Part shown: positions 3,773 to 25,393 of the stretch, piece by piece
How positions within the stretch are numbered: the stretch's first letter is position 1
Layout: every line of letters starts with the position of its first letter
Virus record (IMG/VR): IMGVR_UViG_3300030104_006381
Coordinates: 1-25,393 of that record
DNA: 25,393 nucleotides
Source of the DNA: a virus
Direction: 5' to 3' (one strand)
Program-made: the position numbers and the translations under genes
The notes under the pieces: model-generated
What the model was told of the DNA's origin: nothing
Database searches by the model: none
What the model saw: the letters and a program-made list of their open reading frames with translations, nothing else

Positions 3773-4028
3773 CAATGCGATCCTCTAATGTATATTCGTC
3801 TTCAAGCAAATAGACCGTCCCACTGCTTATCAAACGCTCAAGTGTATCGTGTCCCATAACTGTGATAGACCCATCTACATAGTATATCTCATAGTTAAAT
3901 CGCCAATTAATCATGGCATTTATTGTATTTAATTTGCCTGTCTCAATTAAACGACAAATAACACCAATCTTTCCCATGTCCCAAATGAGAGTACCTACAT
4001 CATAGTAATCATTTTTTGGCACGCTCAA
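3762..4028 (-). CDS. Divergent GDLV-family protein, longer version
   Basis: 88 residues if it starts at TTG (4026-4028), which has AAGGAG 4 nt upstream; GTG at 4020-4022 is the alternative and there is no in-frame ATG before residue 18. The core starts DVGTLIWDMGKIGVI and continues through NYEIYYVDGSITVMGHDTLERLI, where the family's closing strand would be; an acidic tail follows (LLEDEYTLEDRIDD). It overlaps the protease gene upstream by 20 nt, an unusual depth that makes the start uncertain. Confidence 0.65.
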   Translation of the reverse strand: MSVPKNDYYDVGTLIWDMGKIGVICRLIETGKLNTINAMINWRFNYEIYYVDGSITVMGHDTLERLISSGTVYLLEDEYTLEDRIDDI

Positions 4029-4707
4029 ACAACTCCTTTATGAAGTCGTGATCATAGTCTTGAATTTTCTGAACATGCACAGCAGTCTCGACCAACTCAG
4101 GAAATGGATTGACACTGGATACACCAACTGAAACGGCTGAGAGGACACCAATCGCTCTCCCCCAGAAATCAAACACGACAGAACCCGATGAACCGGGCAA
4201 AGCAAAGCTCTGAATTAACATTCTATACTCTGAATCCTTGGAAACAAAGCCTTTAAAAAGAGATTTACCTAAATCTTGCGGAAACCCCGCATAGTAAGTA
4301 GTTTTTCCAATTAAATCATTATTTCGATTAACTCGAAACCATTGAGCGTCTATGTTCCACAATTCTCTTTCCGGCACAAGTACCGCAAGATCGCGAATTG
4401 GATCCAAATGCAGAGGTATGAGCCTAACAAGCTCTTCTCCATCAATTATATATGTTTCGTATGGGTGGTTTATAACATGGGCGGCTGTTAAGATAAATTT
4501 ATATTTACCTGATTTGAAGTAGTTACCAGAACCATGGCCCAACATGGTTTCACCTTTCATAACAAGAATCTTACCACTGGATGCTAATGGTGTTTTGTTA
4601 GAAAAAGCTTTCGTCGTTTGAGCTTGTTCAAATGTAACTGCTGTCCGATTCTCACTTGTTTCCAGAGTAACCAGACAAGAAAACAACAACAATAAATAAT
4701 AAGACAT
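4009..4707 (-). CDS. Exported trypsin-like serine protease
   Basis: 232 residues from ATG at 4705-4707 (TTG at 4713 is an alternative). The N-terminus SYYLLLLFSCLV is a short hydrophobic export signal, possibly a lipobox with Cys11, though Phe at -2 is atypical. The trypsin/HtrA-type (PA clan) triad is readable: His77 in LTAAHV, Asp106 in PIRDLAVL, Ser174 in PGSSGS. The length suits one chymotrypsin-fold domain with no PDZ domain. It likely cuts proteins in the host envelope or periplasm; the substrate is unknown. It has a terminator just upstream and shares a leader element with the vWA lipoprotein. It is unusual among small array genes. Family call firm, role inferred. Confidence 0.88.
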   Translation of the reverse strand: MSYYLLLLFSCLVTLETSENRTAVTFEQAQTTKAFSNKTPLASSGKILVMKGETMLGHGSGNYFKSGKYKFILTAAHVINHPYETYIIDGEELVRLIPLHLDPIRDLAVLVPERELWNIDAQWFRVNRNNDLIGKTTYYAGFPQDLGKSLFKGFVSKDSEYRMLIQSFALPGSSGSVVFDFWGRAIGVLSAVSVGVSSVNPFPELVETAVHVQKIQDYDHDFIKELFERAKK

Positions 4708-4711
4708 AACC

Positions 4712-4732
4712 AAAACCCTCTATTAATAACTA
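4712..4732 (-). promoter_or_regulatory. Leader element shared with the vWA lipoprotein gene
   Basis: The 21 nt before the protease gene match 9616-9635 before the ASH/vWA lipoprotein gene: 11 identical bases (TAGAGGGTTTT on the coding strand) and 8 identical bases (TAGTTATT), separated by two versus one differing nt. GAGGG may serve as the ribosome site; the TAGTTATT part could be a promoter or regulator site. No other copy was noticed in the window. Confidence 0.45.
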
Positions 4733-5700: not shown

Positions 5701-6585
5701 TCATTGTCTCCAAATGACCCAGCCGTCATCAGATAGGTCAGTTAAAGATAAGATCGCTGATGTCCCTAAAGTAACTATTAGCGACCTAACTTCTTCGTCA
5801 GAAACTTCAGCGGCATTGTTTTCACAATTCATTTCGCATACAAAATCAGTAGGACTCTCGAAGTCACAATGATCTGCATCGTCAACTTTTAAAATATAGC
5901 TTTCCCCCATCATTTCAAAGAGTTGTAAGCCGTTATTATTGGAGTTGCATGATGAGGGTTCACCCATCACCAAAAACCCCGGCACCTTTATACTATCGGC
6001 ATATTGTTGACCTATAAAGTCAGGCACATTCGGCACGTTCTCTGTGTCGGTGGTATCAAGACCCAAAACACCCAAAGCATCGGGGTCTTGGCTTGCAGCA
6101 ATAATAGAGGCCAAGCCGCCAGCCGAATGACCACCATATACCACTTCAGCAGCACCATGATAATCAGCAAGTTCTACCATATTTTGGCCATTCATTTCAT
6201 GATCCACACCAGCTATTATATTGTAATGACATAGAGTCGGAAGTAAAACCTCCACCCCCCATGAAGCAAGGTGGTCGGCCCACCCGGTCATAGTATCAGG
6301 ACCACGGGCAAAGCCATGCCCCAGCACAACAACGGGAGGACTTGAGACATTCACAGGCGAATAAACATCGTAGCTCATATTGGGACAATTAGTTACTCCA
6401 ATAGACATGCTCTCCATGTTTACATCATAGGAACCACGAACAAGATAATCTGTGGTTTCTGGCTCCGTTGTTTCTTCCATTTGTTCATCGGGGTTGTTTT
6501 GTGTCTTATCTGTGGCGATACCAATGTTACCACCACATGCGAGGATTGAGCAAAGGCCCAATCCAATTAATAATTTTGTTTTCAT
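5701..6585 (-). CDS. Exported alpha/beta-hydrolase lipoprotein
   Basis: 294 residues with a lipoprotein signal: MKTK, a hydrophobic core and lipobox ILAC with Cys17, then an acidic Thr/Glu/Asn linker (24-46). The alpha/beta-hydrolase fold follows: oxyanion region VVVLGHGFARG (85-95), nucleophile elbow GGHSAGG with Ser154, probable acid Asp177 (GLDTTD), and His239 in DADHCDFESPTD. The last resembles cutinase/chlorophyllase/dienelactone-type esterases of this group. The cysteines near the end may pair. It is probably anchored on the outside of the inner or in the outer membrane and acts on an ester; the substrate is unknown. It starts 1 nt after the amidohydrolase stop, so they are co-transcribed. 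Cellular genes of this kind are common in Myxococcota, suggesting acquisition from a host. Confidence 0.85.
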   Translation of the reverse strand: MKTKLLIGLGLCSILACGGNIGIATDKTQNNPDEQMEETTEPETTDYLVRGSYDVNMESMSIGVTNCPNMSYDVYSPVNVSSPPVVVLGHGFARGPDTMTGWADHLASWGVEVLLPTLCHYNIIAGVDHEMNGQNMVELADYHGAAEVVYGGHSAGGLASIIAASQDPDALGVLGLDTTDTENVPNVPDFIGQQYADSIKVPGFLVMGEPSSCNSNNNGLQLFEMMGESYILKVDDADHCDFESPTDFVCEMNCENNAAEVSDEEVRSLIVTLGTSAILSLTDLSDDGWVIWRQ

Positions 6586-6586
6586 A

Positions 6587-7543
6587 TTATATTCCTAAAA
6601 CTTTTTTACCGTTTGTTGTTGCTATTTTAACTAATTCGTCTTCATCATATATTTTACATGCCTCAAGGAGCATTCTTAACTCAAACATCATGTCTCCATC
6701 ACAATAAGGCTTGTAAACATCTTGAATATTATCTGAACCAAGGGCGACCACAAGATCGTTCTCTATCAACTCGTCAACTGGAGTTATTGAATTGTGGATT
6801 GGGGCCAACTCTTCTCTTCTTGGATGGTCTATCCAAGCACTTGGGCAAGCAACAAAAGACAAACCAGCATCACGGCTCATGCTGTACACTTCTTGTCTAT
6901 AGTGTTTGGGATGACAGGCTAATGATATACTATGGACCGCTGTAACCTTGTCTTCCATACCCCATTGGATGGTCTTCCTCGCCAATAATTCAGTCTCTTT
7001 TTCTCTGTTTGTGTTCAATTGATCCACATGAACATGAAGCCTTTTATTGTTTTCCTTGGCCAGATTCATAACAAAATCCAAATGCTCGCTTTCTCTGCCT
7101 TTATCAGCACCTGGGAGCGAACCAATTATGTCTGCTTTTTCTATATTCATTAGTAGCACATTTCTTTCTTCTGGTTCCAAAACACCCTTCAAAGTTTGAG
7201 TAGCGATGGTCAAGCTTATTCGACCTTTAAAACAATTATAATTTGATACATCATAGGCAGCCGAGATCGCTTTAGAGCCGACCATGGTATCCAAATCAAT
7301 AAAAGAGCAAACATGCTTCACGCCGAAAGCAATCTGCTCATGTAGAGCATTATTTATTCTACCTTCATAGTCCAACTTGGTGGAGCTTTTCTTTATTTTA
7401 TCAACAAGTTTCCACTTCTCTTTTAAAAACATATATTTTTCTTTGCTTGTAAAAGAGTTGGCTGTGTTCGCTCTATCTAAATGAGAGTGAGCATTAACAA
7501 AGCCTCCGTTTGCTTTAATTTTTGCTTTAATTTTTTCTAACAT
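6587..7543 (-). CDS. Cytosine-deaminase-like amidohydrolase
   Basis: 318 residues, a metal-dependent TIM-barrel amidohydrolase. Visible metal and active-site motifs: HSH (His19, His21), HVDQ (His172, Gln175), His204 in TAVHSISLA, and Asp271 in ALGSDN. These are in the order found in the CodA/AtzC branch. In CodA the third motif is HCDE, where Glu is the general acid/base; here it is Gln, so the substrate or chemistry may differ. The family's N-terminal beta-sandwich is short or absent, since the HxH motif lies at residue 19. A pyrimidine salvage role would suit a phage; this is inference. The start (AAGGA 6 nt upstream) is only 14 nt from the tmRNA 3' end. Confidence 0.85.
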   Translation of the reverse strand: MLEKIKAKIKANGGFVNAHSHLDRANTANSFTSKEKYMFLKEKWKLVDKIKKSSTKLDYEGRINNALHEQIAFGVKHVCSFIDLDTMVGSKAISAAYDVSNYNCFKGRISLTIATQTLKGVLEPEERNVLLMNIEKADIIGSLPGADKGRESEHLDFVMNLAKENNKRLHVHVDQLNTNREKETELLARKTIQWGMEDKVTAVHSISLACHPKHYRQEVYSMSRDAGLSFVACPSAWIDHPRREELAPIHNSITPVDELIENDLVVALGSDNIQDVYKPYCDGDMMFELRMLLEACKIYDEDELVKIATTNGKKVLGI

Positions 7544-7557
7544 ACAATTTCCTTAAA

Positions 7558-7897
7558 TGGTGGAGGATAGGGGAATCGAACCCCTGTCCAACGCAGCTAA
7601 GATTAGAGTCATTCACAGGCTTAGTCGGTTTCCTATCACAACTCCGACAAAGATAGGCAGCTTTAAAACGATGCTTACTGCCCTGTTGCACCGAGTTTTT
7701 TTGATTTTTACAACTTGTCTGTTGTGTTGCCCCACTTGGACAGATGGTGTGAGGCGACCACCTGATTAAGCAGCTAAAGCTACTTCTTCAAAAAACAAAT
7801 TATTGTTTGCAATTATTAAGTTTGAACTTTTAAGGTTGTATCTTACCTACCTGCACTCGGCCTCCGAGTTCTACGCTGTCGAAACCATGTAACCCCC
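7558..7897 (-). ncRNA. ssrA: tmRNA (transfer-messenger RNA)
   Basis: A complete tmRNA of 340 nt with encoded CCA (7558-7560). The 3' part is a canonical T arm (AGGGG TTCGATT CCCCT) and acceptor strand ATCCTCC-A-CCA. The 5' end GGGGGTT pairs with it, giving G1-C72, G2-C71 and a G3-U70 wobble, the alanyl-tRNA synthetase identity element, plus discriminator A73. The D-loop-like GGTTTCGACAG follows. Between them lies the tag frame and pseudoknot-rich sequence. tmRNA rescues stalled ribosomes by trans-translation with SmpB and marks the product for degradation. It is 5 nt downstream of a Cys-rich micro-gene and 14 nt upstream of the amidohydrolase, so it must be cut from a longer transcript. No smpB gene is in the window. 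Confidence 0.96.
7766..7810 (-). other. ssrA: tmRNA tag-peptide reading frame
   Basis: Resume codon GCA at 7808-7810, stop TAA at 7766-7768. The frame encodes ANNNLFFEEVALAA. The ALAA end is the classical ClpX/ClpP degron. The middle part (NNNLFFEEV) differs from the E. coli tag ANDENYALAA but is of normal length. The assignment of the resume codon follows from the position of the tag and the ALAA stop; pairing details were not computed. Confidence 0.92.
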
Positions 7898-7902
7898 TAA
7901 GA

Positions 7903-7965
7903 TTATTTACAGCAACATTCACATTCACAAGGTGCTTTGCAGCCGCAGCATTCACAATTTTCCAT
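7903..7965 (-). CDS. Nine-cysteine micropeptide (20 residues)
   Basis: ATG at 7963-7965, TAA at 7903-7905. GGAGGA lies 7 nt before the ATG, one of the best ribosome sites in the window, and a promoter (8006-8034) stands about 40 nt upstream. The product is MENCECCGCKAPCECECCCK: Cys at 4, 6, 7, 9, 13, 15, 17, 18 and 19, with Glu and Lys between. The CxCC, CxC and CCC spacings resemble metallothionein metal clusters. Binding of zinc, copper or another soft metal is inferred; I know no family to which it belongs. The stop is 5 nt from the tmRNA 5' end, so the frame is the leader of the tmRNA precursor. Confidence 0.78.
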   Translation of the reverse strand: MENCECCGCKAPCECECCCK

Positions 7966-8005
7966 TTTTGAGTCCTCCCAAAGTAATTAGGTGTCTCATG
8001 TATAG

Positions 8006-8034
8006 AATATATCATTATATTTATATTTTGTCAA
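8006..8034 (-). promoter_or_regulatory. Sigma-70-like promoter of the micropeptide-tmRNA unit
   Basis: Minus-strand TTGACA (8029-8034), a 17-nt spacer and TATATT (8006-8011). Transcription should start near 7999, leaving a leader of about 33 nt before the Cys-rich micropeptide and then the tmRNA. It lies 4 nt beyond the stop of the vWA lipoprotein gene. Confidence 0.78.
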
Positions 8035-8037
8035 ATA

Positions 8038-9612
8038 TTATTCTTCTTGACATCCAAGAATTGCATATTTAATTTTTATAATTTGTTCATCAGCGGGAGC
8101 ATCAGACGAGTTGAATTCGACCTGATTGGTTTGAGGATTGTACCACCACAAGTTGTTTGGCTGGTCGCCAACCATAACCTCTATTGTGTCCTCAATCGGA
8201 TCTTCACTTAAATCATACGACGCAACTGGAATGGAATTAAAAGCCATGGACTGCATTTGTTGGCCCCAATCTACAGCACAAATAGAATAAATTGTGCCTC
8301 CGAAATAGTTTGCCACATCATAATAGCCAGCACCAAAGGTCGCATGTCGCATGTAGCCACCATAATTGTAGGTACAACCGCCGGGAGGATCACCAATAAC
8401 AGCATGGGCGATAATCATGGATGGGTCGGGCTTTAATGTCTCAATATAATTGGTAAATTGTTGCCAATTGTTGCGATAAAATGCTGGTTCATCCGACACA
8501 TATACAATTACCAAGTTAGCATCTGCTCTTTGAAAGCCAGAATGAGGACCCACCGAACCCCAAGTCTGAAGGGCATCGTGAGACATTTTGATGCCCTTTT
8601 CTCGCGGTGAACCAGCGATTCCTGTTTGCACTTGAGAAGATAATTCGGCTACAGGGTTGGGGGTATTTGGCGTAATTATATTGCCTCTGAGGACGGCACT
8701 ATCAGTTGTTATAACACCAATTTGATAATCAACATTAAGAAGTGCAAAGGCAGTCATAAACGATTGAATATTATTGGCCAAACTAAGTTGTAGCGGAAAC
8801 ATAGAGCCAGAATTATCAACCACAAATAATATATCTGCTTTTGATATAGAAGCTTGCTGAAAAACATCCGTTACATATTCTCCATAGTCTGCGGTAGCAT
8901 CAAGTGTAACTGTAACTGTGGGAGTAACTGGATCATTAGAATCTATATCAGCCATCGCAGAATCTGCTAATAAATCTTGTGGCTCATATGAGACATTAAT
9001 AATTTCCGTCGTACCGGGTGCAACACGCAGGGGTAGGGGAGCAGCAGGTAAAGAGAAGTCGTTAGGTGGGCTAACCCAGAAATCAATATTATCTACTATC
9101 AAGTCCATGTTACCAACATTACTAATTTCTATTTCAGTAATATCCTCGCAACCTAAATCAATAACCCCACGATCGGTTTCTATTGGATTGACTTCGATCA
9201 CAGGTGCATCACCGAAGCCATGAATGGGAACATTAACAACGGGGTTATCAGGATCATTAGAGACAATATAAATATGAGCCGACTTTTCTTCAAAAGTGAT
9301 CGGCTCATAAGTTACTTCAAAATTTGTTGCTTCTGAATTCTCTAATTCATATTCTTGGGGCTGTCCGTGTGAGAAGTTTGTTTGCCCATAGATCCCTATG
9401 TCTTCTATCTCTAAAACACCGTCTCCAGAATTAATAATTGTGACCAACTCAGAAAGACTTTCGACTCCAGATATAAGGTGACCATACTCAATATATTCTG
9501 GTGTCACGATGATGTTTGGTTCTTCGGGCACCGGGTCCACTGTTTGAACCTTTATAATCGAATGATCACTACAACCTACTAAAAAATATAATAAAAACAA
9601 CAACTTTTTCAT
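8038..9612 (-). CDS. Lipoprotein with ASH-like repeats and a vWA domain
   Basis: 524 residues. A lipoprotein signal (MKKLLFLLYFLVGC, Cys14) is followed by two ASH-like (choice-of-anchor D) beta domains at about 34-133 and 136-240. Both have the typical IINSGDGVLEI / ISNVGNMDLIV and IVSNDPDNP / DIDSNDPVTP phrases. A von Willebrand A domain starts near 258 with an intact MIDAS motif DNSGSM (266-271). A C-terminal beta segment ends in CQEE. Such proteins sit on cell surfaces and bind ligands through a divalent metal; ASH plus vWA lipoproteins are typical of Myxococcota and relatives. In a phage it may alter the infected cell's surface. GAGGG lies 7 nt before the ATG. It is much longer than its neighbours and probably of bacterial origin. 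Confidence 0.88.
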   Translation of the reverse strand: MKKLLFLLYFLVGCSDHSIIKVQTVDPVPEEPNIIVTPEYIEYGHLISGVESLSELVTIINSGDGVLEIEDIGIYGQTNFSHGQPQEYELENSEATNFEVTYEPITFEEKSAHIYIVSNDPDNPVVNVPIHGFGDAPVIEVNPIETDRGVIDLGCEDITEIEISNVGNMDLIVDNIDFWVSPPNDFSLPAAPLPLRVAPGTTEIINVSYEPQDLLADSAMADIDSNDPVTPTVTVTLDATADYGEYVTDVFQQASISKADILFVVDNSGSMFPLQLSLANNIQSFMTAFALLNVDYQIGVITTDSAVLRGNIITPNTPNPVAELSSQVQTGIAGSPREKGIKMSHDALQTWGSVGPHSGFQRADANLVIVYVSDEPAFYRNNWQQFTNYIETLKPDPSMIIAHAVIGDPPGGCTYNYGGYMRHATFGAGYYDVANYFGGTIYSICAVDWGQQMQSMAFNSIPVASYDLSEDPIEDTIEVMVGDQPNNLWWYNPQTNQVEFNSSDAPADEQIIKIKYAILGCQEE

Positions 9613-11428: not shown

Positions 11429-11453
11429 CGCAACACTAAATAGTGTCACTGCG
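11429..11453 (-). other. Bulged hairpin between groEL and the next gene
   Basis: CGCA / TGCG and ACACT / AGTGT arms form a 9-bp stem with a 3-nt bulge and an ATTT loop. It spans the groEL stop codon and touches the GAGG site of the next gene. There is no T run, so it is not an intrinsic terminator; an effect on mRNA processing or translation is possible. Confidence 0.5.
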
Positions 11454-13017
11454 ATACAATCGCATGTCCTGTTGTTAATAAAGTTGAAGCAACAGACACG
11501 GCATTCTCAAGAGCACAGCGAGTAACTTTAGCCGGATCAATGATACCAGAGCTTGTAAGTTCTTTTATCTCATTGGTCATAAAATCATAACCTTCACCAT
11601 CATTTGAATTAACAACTTGGTTGACAATCAAGTCAGGAGAAAGCCCAGCATTTATTGCCATTTGTCTTAGAGGTTCTTGAACTGCTTCAAGTATAATGTC
11701 TCTGCCGAGTGCCTGTTCATCACTTAAATCATTGATTTCTATACACTTTGCGGCATGTATAAGAGCAGAACCACCCCCCGAAACAATACCCTCCATTTGA
11801 GCGGATCTCACCGCCTCAAGAGCATCATCAATTCGGTGTTTCTTTTCAATCATCTCGACCTCTGTAGCTGCTCCGACCCTAATAACAGCAACGCCACTAG
11901 CAAGACGAGTGATCCGTTCCTGATGACGTTCGCACTCTTTGAGCGACTCGGTATCTTTAATTTCCGCTTTAATCGTCTCAATTTGTTTGTCAATCTCATT
12001 TTGCTCTCCCTTACCGCCGATGATAGTTGTCCAGCCTTTATTAACTGAAATCTTTTTACAATTTCCAAAATGCTTTAATTGAATGTCCCTTAGTTGTAAG
12101 CCATTTTCTCTGGAAATGCAGGTTGCACCTATAGAAATACATAGATCCTTCATAATATTTCTTCGTTCTTCGCCATAGCGAGGAGCCTTCACAGCAGCGA
12201 CCTTTAGGGATCCCCGAACAGTGTTCATAATGAGTGCTGCAAGGGCTTGGTCAACAACATCATTTGCCACAAACAAAAGTGGCCGGTTTTCTCTGGCTGC
12301 AAGCTCAAGTGTTGGTAGAATTTGGTCGACGTGTTCGATCTTCTCATCTGTGACAAGAATGATAGGGTTTTCATAGCTGATTGTTCCGCTTCTCTCATCG
12401 GTTATAAATGCCGATGCAAGATACCCAGAATCAAACCTAAACCCCTCAATCAAATCAAGAGATGTATCAATTGATCGGGCTTCTTCAACGATAACAGAGC
12501 CATCTTTACCAGCACAATCAACAGCTTTTGCAATGAGAGTGCCAATGGTCGTGTCATTGTTTGCAGAAATGGTTGCAACATGTCGGATGTCTTCTTCGCT
12601 TTGGATGGGTCGGGACATTTCTTTGATGTGTTCGGTTAACACAGTTATTGTCGCATCCATGCCGCGCTTCAGTTCAATTGGAGAAACACCGGCAGTAATA
12701 TACTTTTGTGCTCGGTTGATAATACCACGGGCAAGAACCGTTGTGGTTGTTGTCCCATCGCCAGCATTATTTGCAGATTGTTCGGCGGCTTGTTTTACAA
12801 TTTGGGCCCCGACATTTTCAAAGGGATCTTCAAATTCAATAAACTTCGCGATGGTTACACCATCTTTTGTGACAACGGGAAGGTTTTGTTCTTTGCTATA
12901 AAGAATAACATTCCGGCCCTTGGGGCCAAGGGTGCTTCCGACATTATCGGCAAGCTTGTTAATTCCGTTCAACAGTTTCGCATTCAGTCCTTGACCGCTG
13001 CTATAATGCTTAGTCAT
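11446..13017 (-). CDS. groEL: GroEL-type chaperonin (Hsp60)
   Basis: 523 residues, close to the 548 of E. coli GroEL. The N-terminal region (TLGPKGRNV, 29-37), Asp52 in TKDG, the ATP-site GDGTTT (86-91) and the C-terminal VSGGG...ALEN...VASTLLTT stretch are intact. The Gly/Met-rich GGM tail is absent, ending TGHAIVSQ. It forms ring chaperonins that fold proteins with ATP; phage GroELs (for example of jumbo phages EL and OBP) can work without GroES, and no groES lies next to it here. It has its own consensus promoter (13045-13073) and GGAGGA ribosome site, suggesting strong expression. The cochaperonin requirement is unknown. Confidence 0.96.
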   Translation of the reverse strand: MTKHYSSGQGLNAKLLNGINKLADNVGSTLGPKGRNVILYSKEQNLPVVTKDGVTIAKFIEFEDPFENVGAQIVKQAAEQSANNAGDGTTTTTVLARGIINRAQKYITAGVSPIELKRGMDATITVLTEHIKEMSRPIQSEEDIRHVATISANNDTTIGTLIAKAVDCAGKDGSVIVEEARSIDTSLDLIEGFRFDSGYLASAFITDERSGTISYENPIILVTDEKIEHVDQILPTLELAARENRPLLFVANDVVDQALAALIMNTVRGSLKVAAVKAPRYGEERRNIMKDLCISIGATCISRENGLQLRDIQLKHFGNCKKISVNKGWTTIIGGKGEQNEIDKQIETIKAEIKDTESLKECERHQERITRLASGVAVIRVGAATEVEMIEKKHRIDDALEAVRSAQMEGIVSGGGSALIHAAKCIEINDLSDEQALGRDIILEAVQEPLRQMAINAGLSPDLIVNQVVNSNDGEGYDFMTNEIKELTSSGIIDPAKVTRCALENAVSVASTLLTTGHAIVSQ

Positions 13018-24992: not shown

Positions 24993-25021
24993 ATTGTATC
25001 ATCTTATCAGGCTGCTGTCAA
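24993..25021 (-). promoter_or_regulatory. Sigma-70-like promoter of dnaE
   Basis: Minus-strand TTGACA (25016-25021), exactly 17 nt, TACAAT (24993-24998), one base off consensus. The -35 box is formed by the Leu-Thr codons near the end of the UV endonuclease gene. Start about 15 to 20 nt before the dnaE ribosome site. Confidence 0.85.
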
Positions 25022-25393
25022 GAGTTTTTTTTGGAAATCTTCTCTGTACTTGATGAGGGCCAACTCTTTCTTCTTGCATTCAAGCACAACATCAACATCT
25101 TTGTCGTAAGCTTCAAAGGGGGTGTAGTACCAGTCTGAATGGGCTGTGGCCTTGACTGATGGGTCTTCGTAATCCTTACGGGAATTAGAATGGTGACATT
25201 GTTGTTTGACACCGCGATCAATCCAAGTCTGTCTGGCGAGATGAAAGGCATCATGATAGTCAAGATCCTGTGGGCCAAGATCATGGTGATGTGAATCAAA
25301 GACAATAGGGATACCGATGTGCTTGCTGACTCCATCGTAAAGCATCTTGGTTGAAAACATAGATTGTCTGTCGTCGTTCTCAACAGTCAGGCG
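25007..25393 (-). CDS. uvsE: UV-damage endonuclease (UVDE), C-terminal part
   Basis: The last 128 residues are in the window; the N-terminus lies beyond 25393. It opens with RLTVENDD, the Glu-containing barrel strand of UVDE (RLTLENDD in the family), followed by IPIVFDSHHHDLGP, a metal-binding strand with several His, and a basic QQCHHSNSRKD and TAHSDWYY segment. UVDE is a TIM-barrel nuclease that nicks DNA 5' to pyrimidine dimers and some other lesions. It would start repair of UV damage in phage DNA, fitting sunlit water. The end (KKLLTAA) overlaps the dnaE promoter. Frame open to the edge. Confidence 0.92.
   Translation of the reverse strand, partial: RLTVENDDRQSMFSTKMLYDGVSKHIGIPIVFDSHHHDLGPQDLDYHDAFHLARQTWIDRGVKQQCHHSNSRKDYEDPSVKATAHSDWYYTPFEAYDKDVDVVLECKKKELALIKYREDFQKKLLTAA

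Follow-up and report, generated by a model that had tools for sequence, protein, structure and literature searches.

Does a 20-residue peptide with nine cysteines, encoded immediately ahead of a phage tmRNA, take part in the regulation of that tmRNA, or is it a gene in its own right? The question is raised by a locus in IMG/VR virus record IMGVR_UViG_3300030104_006381, of which the whole stretch analysed (25,393 nucleotides, hereafter the window) contains the following features:

4009 to 4713: trypsin-like protease
5701 to 6585: hydrolase-like lipoprotein
6587 to 7543, minus strand: amidohydrolase-family gene, immediately following the tmRNA in a dense operon
7558 to 7897, minus strand: complete one-piece tmRNA with tag ANNNLFFEEVALAA and encoded CCA (ARAGORN and Rfam)
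7903 to 7965, minus strand: nine-cysteine peptide gene, MENCECCGCKAPCECECCCK (reading of the open reading frame and family pN/pS)
7973 to 7978, minus strand: Shine-Dalgarno sequence GGAGGA, 7 nt 5' of the peptide ATG
8006 to 8034, minus strand: sigma-70-like promoter TTGACA-17-TATATT, predicted to drive the peptide and the tmRNA in the window
8038 to 9612, minus strand: VWA/HYDIN-type lipoprotein-like gene upstream of the peptide, absent at the corresponding place in contig L003
10012 to 10281: glutaredoxin gene
11446 to 13017: GroEL

The open reading frame (ORF) runs on the minus strand from 7965 to 7903, ATGGAAAATTGT...TGCTGTAAATAA, and is translated as MENCECCGCKAPCECECCCK followed by a stop, with cysteine at 9 of the 20 residues (positions 4, 6, 7, 9, 13, 15, 17, 18 and 19). 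Reading of this segment confirmed the nine-cysteine frame and the GGAGGA 7 nt before its ATG that had been described for it. ATG ORFs of 12–25 codons with at least eight cysteines were absent when the window was randomised in 60 order-1 Markov copies, against one in the real sequence. The tmRNA is a full-length match to RF00023 (model positions 1–374, 98.6 bits against a cut-off of 47); since both ARAGORN and Rfam place its 5' end at 7897, the stop codon of the peptide lies 5 nt from the mature 5' end, the distance given in the original prediction. A further Rfam match over the leader, to the permuted tmRNA model RF04321, was rejected as a cross-match, in which the tmRNA portion of the model falls on the ordinary tmRNA, with the peptide gene as no more than an insertion. 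Both genes had also been placed behind one shared promoter, and TTGACA-17-TATATT is indeed present 5' of the peptide in the window, where the sole further site between it and the tmRNA is a weak one with three mismatches inside the peptide ORF. The promoter is not conserved: over the 220 nt 5' of the tmRNA of L003, the nearest relative, that weak site alone recurs. The tags of the tmRNAs of the window, L154, L166, L168, L170, L171, L177 and L178 all begin with ANNN and vary in length and sequence, examples in these phages being, besides the tag of the window, ANNNYYFEQALAA, ANNNNHFEVALAA, ANNNLHFQQRLAA and others.

Copies of the peptide next to a tmRNA, which had been proposed as a check, were found in L003, L082, L167, L170 and L178. 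A pattern built on the tmRNA only returned eight contigs (L003, L082, L165, L166, L167, L168, L169 and L170). In the 57-kb contig L003, whose GroEL is 91% identical, MEKRECCGCKAPCECECCCK stands straight after a cupin gene, without the lipoprotein gene or promoter of the window, and in L082 (GroEL 90%) the tmRNA-adjacent peptide is MENCKCCKCCQCDCENCC. The peptides of L167 (MEKCKCCNCKCC) and L170 (MEKCECCGCNAPCGCECCCK), recovered independently by the same tmRNA-only pattern, sit after a gene related to that at 25007–25360 of the window and hence at another genome position. The cysteine peptide was absent from the other four of the eight contigs, namely L165 (the contig of L154), L169 (the contig of L155), L166 and L168. 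Contig L178 carries MEKCECCGCNPPCSCKCC 5' of its tmRNA, and the stop-to-tmRNA distance is 1–8 nt in all six tmRNA-adjacent copies, window included. The pattern TGCTGY near tmRNA 5' ends gave no member beyond L082 among the 120 contigs listed, and a DNA search of phages with the leader plus tmRNA gave a sole match of 32 nt, near the tmRNA 3' end.

A wider distribution emerged from a pattern built on the peptide only (M-E-[KN]-C-[KEQ]-C-C-x-C), run on IMG/VR and on 84,980 prokaryote species genomes. It identified 14 IMG/VR contigs, against about 0.2 expected from a rough estimate of the collection size, and only four of these have the peptide directly 5' of a tmRNA. In seven (L171, L173, L174, L176, L177, L179 and L180) the peptide lies in a tRNA-Asn/Thr region directly 5' of a conserved structured RNA without an Rfam family, with the tmRNA some 2–4 kb away; where the upstream side of that tmRNA was read (L171, L173, L174, L177 and L180), another ORF and not the cysteine peptide precedes it. 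The RNA in question, about 100 nt long (for example L174:6415–6514, minus strand), comprises three hairpins and a possible pseudoknot, with three pairs changed on both sides; L329 has a distant version of it (46.6 bits), there preceded by a thioredoxin-like gene, the peptide being absent. In the remaining three contigs (L172, L175 and L181) the peptide precedes or overlaps a second ORF with a C-x-C-D-P-C motif at its start. These overlaps or abutments with a CNCDPCDC-type ORF in another frame are located at L181:5524–6019, L172:142–207 and downstream, and L175:7595–8109; the second ORF of L181 has no plausible in-frame ATG, so that its translation may involve a frameshift or an unusual start.

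Two more members, G012 and G010, came from a looser pattern over 36 contigs. The 185-kb contig G012, in which a tmRNA was not detected, carries MSNEKCKCCECCSCECENCC with a terminator-like hairpin and T run behind it, and its cysteine spacing is that of the tmRNA-adjacent copy of L082; in G010, MKNENKCECCCCCSCCCSCECGKDGCCG lies 65 kb from the tmRNA. Altogether the family comprises 18 contigs with Shine-Dalgarno-led peptides of 12–28 residues and 36–50% cysteine, in settings that include a tmRNA (6), the other structured RNA (7), an overlapping cysteine-rich ORF (3), a terminator (1) and a position remote from the tmRNA (1). This count takes in divergent members, G010 above all, whose few residues could reflect shared ancestry or look-alikes, and since the peptides of L171 and L180 are identical, the independent cases are somewhat fewer than 18. 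All relatives are metagenomic contigs. Among the 84,980 prokaryote species genomes the peptide-only pattern found no true member, and three bacterial matches were discarded as chance because of an early stop or the lack of a cysteine-rich continuation. With the 20-residue peptide as query, tblastn gave no match among 50,697 phage records, in a search weakened by the low-complexity filter. The spacing-only pattern CCxC-x3-CxCxCC gave no short cysteine-rich ORF with ATG and Shine-Dalgarno site among the 120 matches listed; that set, of at least 120 contigs and without the known members among the matches listed, serves as a rarity control for the full feature only.

Comparison of synonymous and non-synonymous change, suggested at the outset, points to selection at the protein level. 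Among nine distinct ungapped 20-codon copies pN/pS was 0.16, an uncorrected proportion over 20 codons of related sequences that indicates direction rather than a precise rate. Because the peptide pattern fixed the N-terminal cysteines, conservation there is partly by construction; in codons 10–20, which are free of that constraint, pN/pS was 0.24 in the nine copies. At cysteine codons 13, 15, 17, 18 and 19 pN was 0 and pS 0.83, TGT and TGC being swapped freely and cysteine never lost. The family consensus is MEKCECCGCxAPCxCxCCCK. Not every cysteine is essential, as L003 carries C4R. The peptide could conceivably arise incidentally from a conserved RNA element, with no selection on it as a protein, as its frequent abutment on structured RNAs (the tmRNA or the unnamed RNA) might suggest. 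We regard this as the least credible of the explanations considered, since variable sites in the nine copies number 4, 2 and 14 at codon positions 1, 2 and 3, length differences among copies are whole codons and in frame, an SD-like purine run stands shortly 5' of the ATG in every copy read, and the peptide also occurs without an adjoining known structured RNA. Judged by these patterns of sequence change, the cysteine-rich ORF is a real protein-coding mini-gene, selectively maintained in a group of large uncultured phages.

On balance we find it likely that this phage family has in the ORF an independent gene for a microprotein, with thiols that would bind metal or oxidants, and that its place beside the tmRNA results from packed operons. 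The strong ribosome-binding site would allow the peptide to be made in quantity during infection. The peptide is too small to form a hydrophobic core, and what it conserves is a high density of thiols; the analogy to metallothioneins makes binding of thiophilic metals in Zn/Cu-type clusters, or reaction with oxidants, likely. Small size and cysteine richness with CC and CxC clusters, as in metallothioneins, are found throughout (36–50% cysteine across copies). Searches of the peptide returned no Pfam family at E 0.1 and no PDB sequence match at E 10, 20 residues being too short for either search to be informative; with neither a family profile nor a structure match, the peptide is classed as metallothionein-like only and not as a metallothionein. 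Bacterial metallothioneins of the SmtA/BmtA type are likewise short and cysteine-rich with CxC and CC motifs, but they are longer than the phage peptides (12–28 residues, without a Pfam match) and have His and aromatic residues around a zinc-finger-like fold. Neurospora-type fungal copper metallothioneins, of about 25 residues with 7 cysteines, are similar in length and cysteine density; the phage-borne peptide differs in its spacing (C-x-CC-x-C-x3-C-x-C-x-CCC), and the likeness is taken as analogy. A literature search on phage-encoded metallothioneins found no relevant paper.

Many small phage proteins target host components, and the peptide might bind one particular host protein or RNA (taking zinc from a host enzyme, for instance, or capping it) instead of buffering free metal. 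Residues E5, G8, A11, P12 and K20, kept in most 20-residue copies, agree with this possibility, which we hold to be unlikely but not negligible: the copies span 12–28 residues and show wide variation between their cysteines, as would be expected of a peptide that forms clusters more than of one with a fixed interface. The peptide is probably a tiny metal- or oxidant-binding protein, and the role of independent metal buffer, one of two that had been proposed, appears to be the best available.

The other proposed role, sensing of metal or redox state coupled to tmRNA supply, was not supported. Constant association, as expected of a tmRNA-specific regulatory leader, is not observed: 6 of 18 copies adjoin a tmRNA, 12 of 18 contigs have the peptide away from it, and closely related tmRNAs lack the peptide, a finding that the original prediction itself had named as refuting, here for the coupling. 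Unrelated ORFs in relatives also end equally close to the tmRNA. In L171, L174 and L180 the gap between the tmRNA and the end of an unrelated 71-residue ORF 5' of it is 10 nt, and in L173 (4642) and L177 (1482) a 69-residue ORF related to it overlaps the tmRNA 5' end by 8 nt, so that tmRNA maturation must cut within the coding sequence. With other small ORFs abutting or overlapping it in several relatives, the tmRNA behaves like any other gene of a packed operon; in the window, the gene that follows begins 14 nt past it. The tmRNAs of L154 and L155 have a promoter to themselves, whose −10 box stands 12 nt upstream of the 5' end. In these phages the tmRNA is usually transcribed within packed protein operons, some ORF commonly ending at its 5' end, and this would be why the peptide adjoins it. 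The tmRNA would be freed from the operon transcript by normal 5' processing. Packed operons would therefore explain the spacing, with no need for a regulatory link.

A ribosome terminating 1–8 nt before the tmRNA could nonetheless cover the RNase P site and the acceptor strand, such that translation, slowed by shortage of Cys-tRNA, would gate maturation in cis. The uniformly short distance in the six tmRNA-adjacent copies is compatible with such a leader, and short ORFs of mycobacteria use runs of cysteine codons for attenuation (Canestrari et al., 2020, described in PMC9031893). These polycysteine attenuators resemble the phage gene in being tiny, cysteine-codon-rich ORFs 5' of another gene; the phage peptide differs in being SD-led, not leaderless, and in recurring at unrelated places. 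In every copy read an SD-like site shortly precedes the ATG, and downstream lies a tmRNA, the unnamed RNA, an unassigned cysteine-rich ORF or a terminator instead of a gene of sulfur or cysteine metabolism. We consider the cis-acting leader improbable, given that the peptide is kept in the 12 contigs without an adjoining tmRNA, that it is missing from four other contigs sharing the tmRNA core, that unrelated ORFs lie as near, and that pN/pS indicates selection on amino acids, though an attenuator would keep cysteine codons too. More improbable still is a combined function, in which a ribosome at the peptide stop blocks tmRNA 5' maturation, metal or cysteine state tunes ribosome rescue, and copies elsewhere keep only the metal-binding half. 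With six copies adjoining a tmRNA at 1–8 nt and a different structured RNA immediately following seven more, a role tied to the downstream structured RNA retains a low probability. The tmRNA-side location is nevertheless one of several, and to judge from the family as a whole the peptide probably does not regulate the tmRNA.

The carriers are contigs of up to about 190 kb, with GroEL 50–91% identical among those that encode it. The annotated collection contains no close isolate, the DnaE polymerase being only about 30% identical to its best annotated-phage matches, and the nearest annotated relatives of the cupin are from cyanophages and marine viruses; the habitat is likely marine. The peptide is a new microprotein family with an ordinary reason for its place beside the tmRNA, and the interest lies in the peptides rather than in a tmRNA leader. 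Genes of 12–20 codons, usually dropped by annotation pipelines, can be conserved phage genes. The peptides form a small, synthesisable set, so that metal stoichiometry could be measured directly against length. If metal-binding, they would rank with the shortest metallothionein-like proteins found in nature (12–28 residues), and these large phages, which encode GroEL, glutaredoxin and tmRNA as well, would offer an unusual instance of a phage with its own metal or redox buffer.
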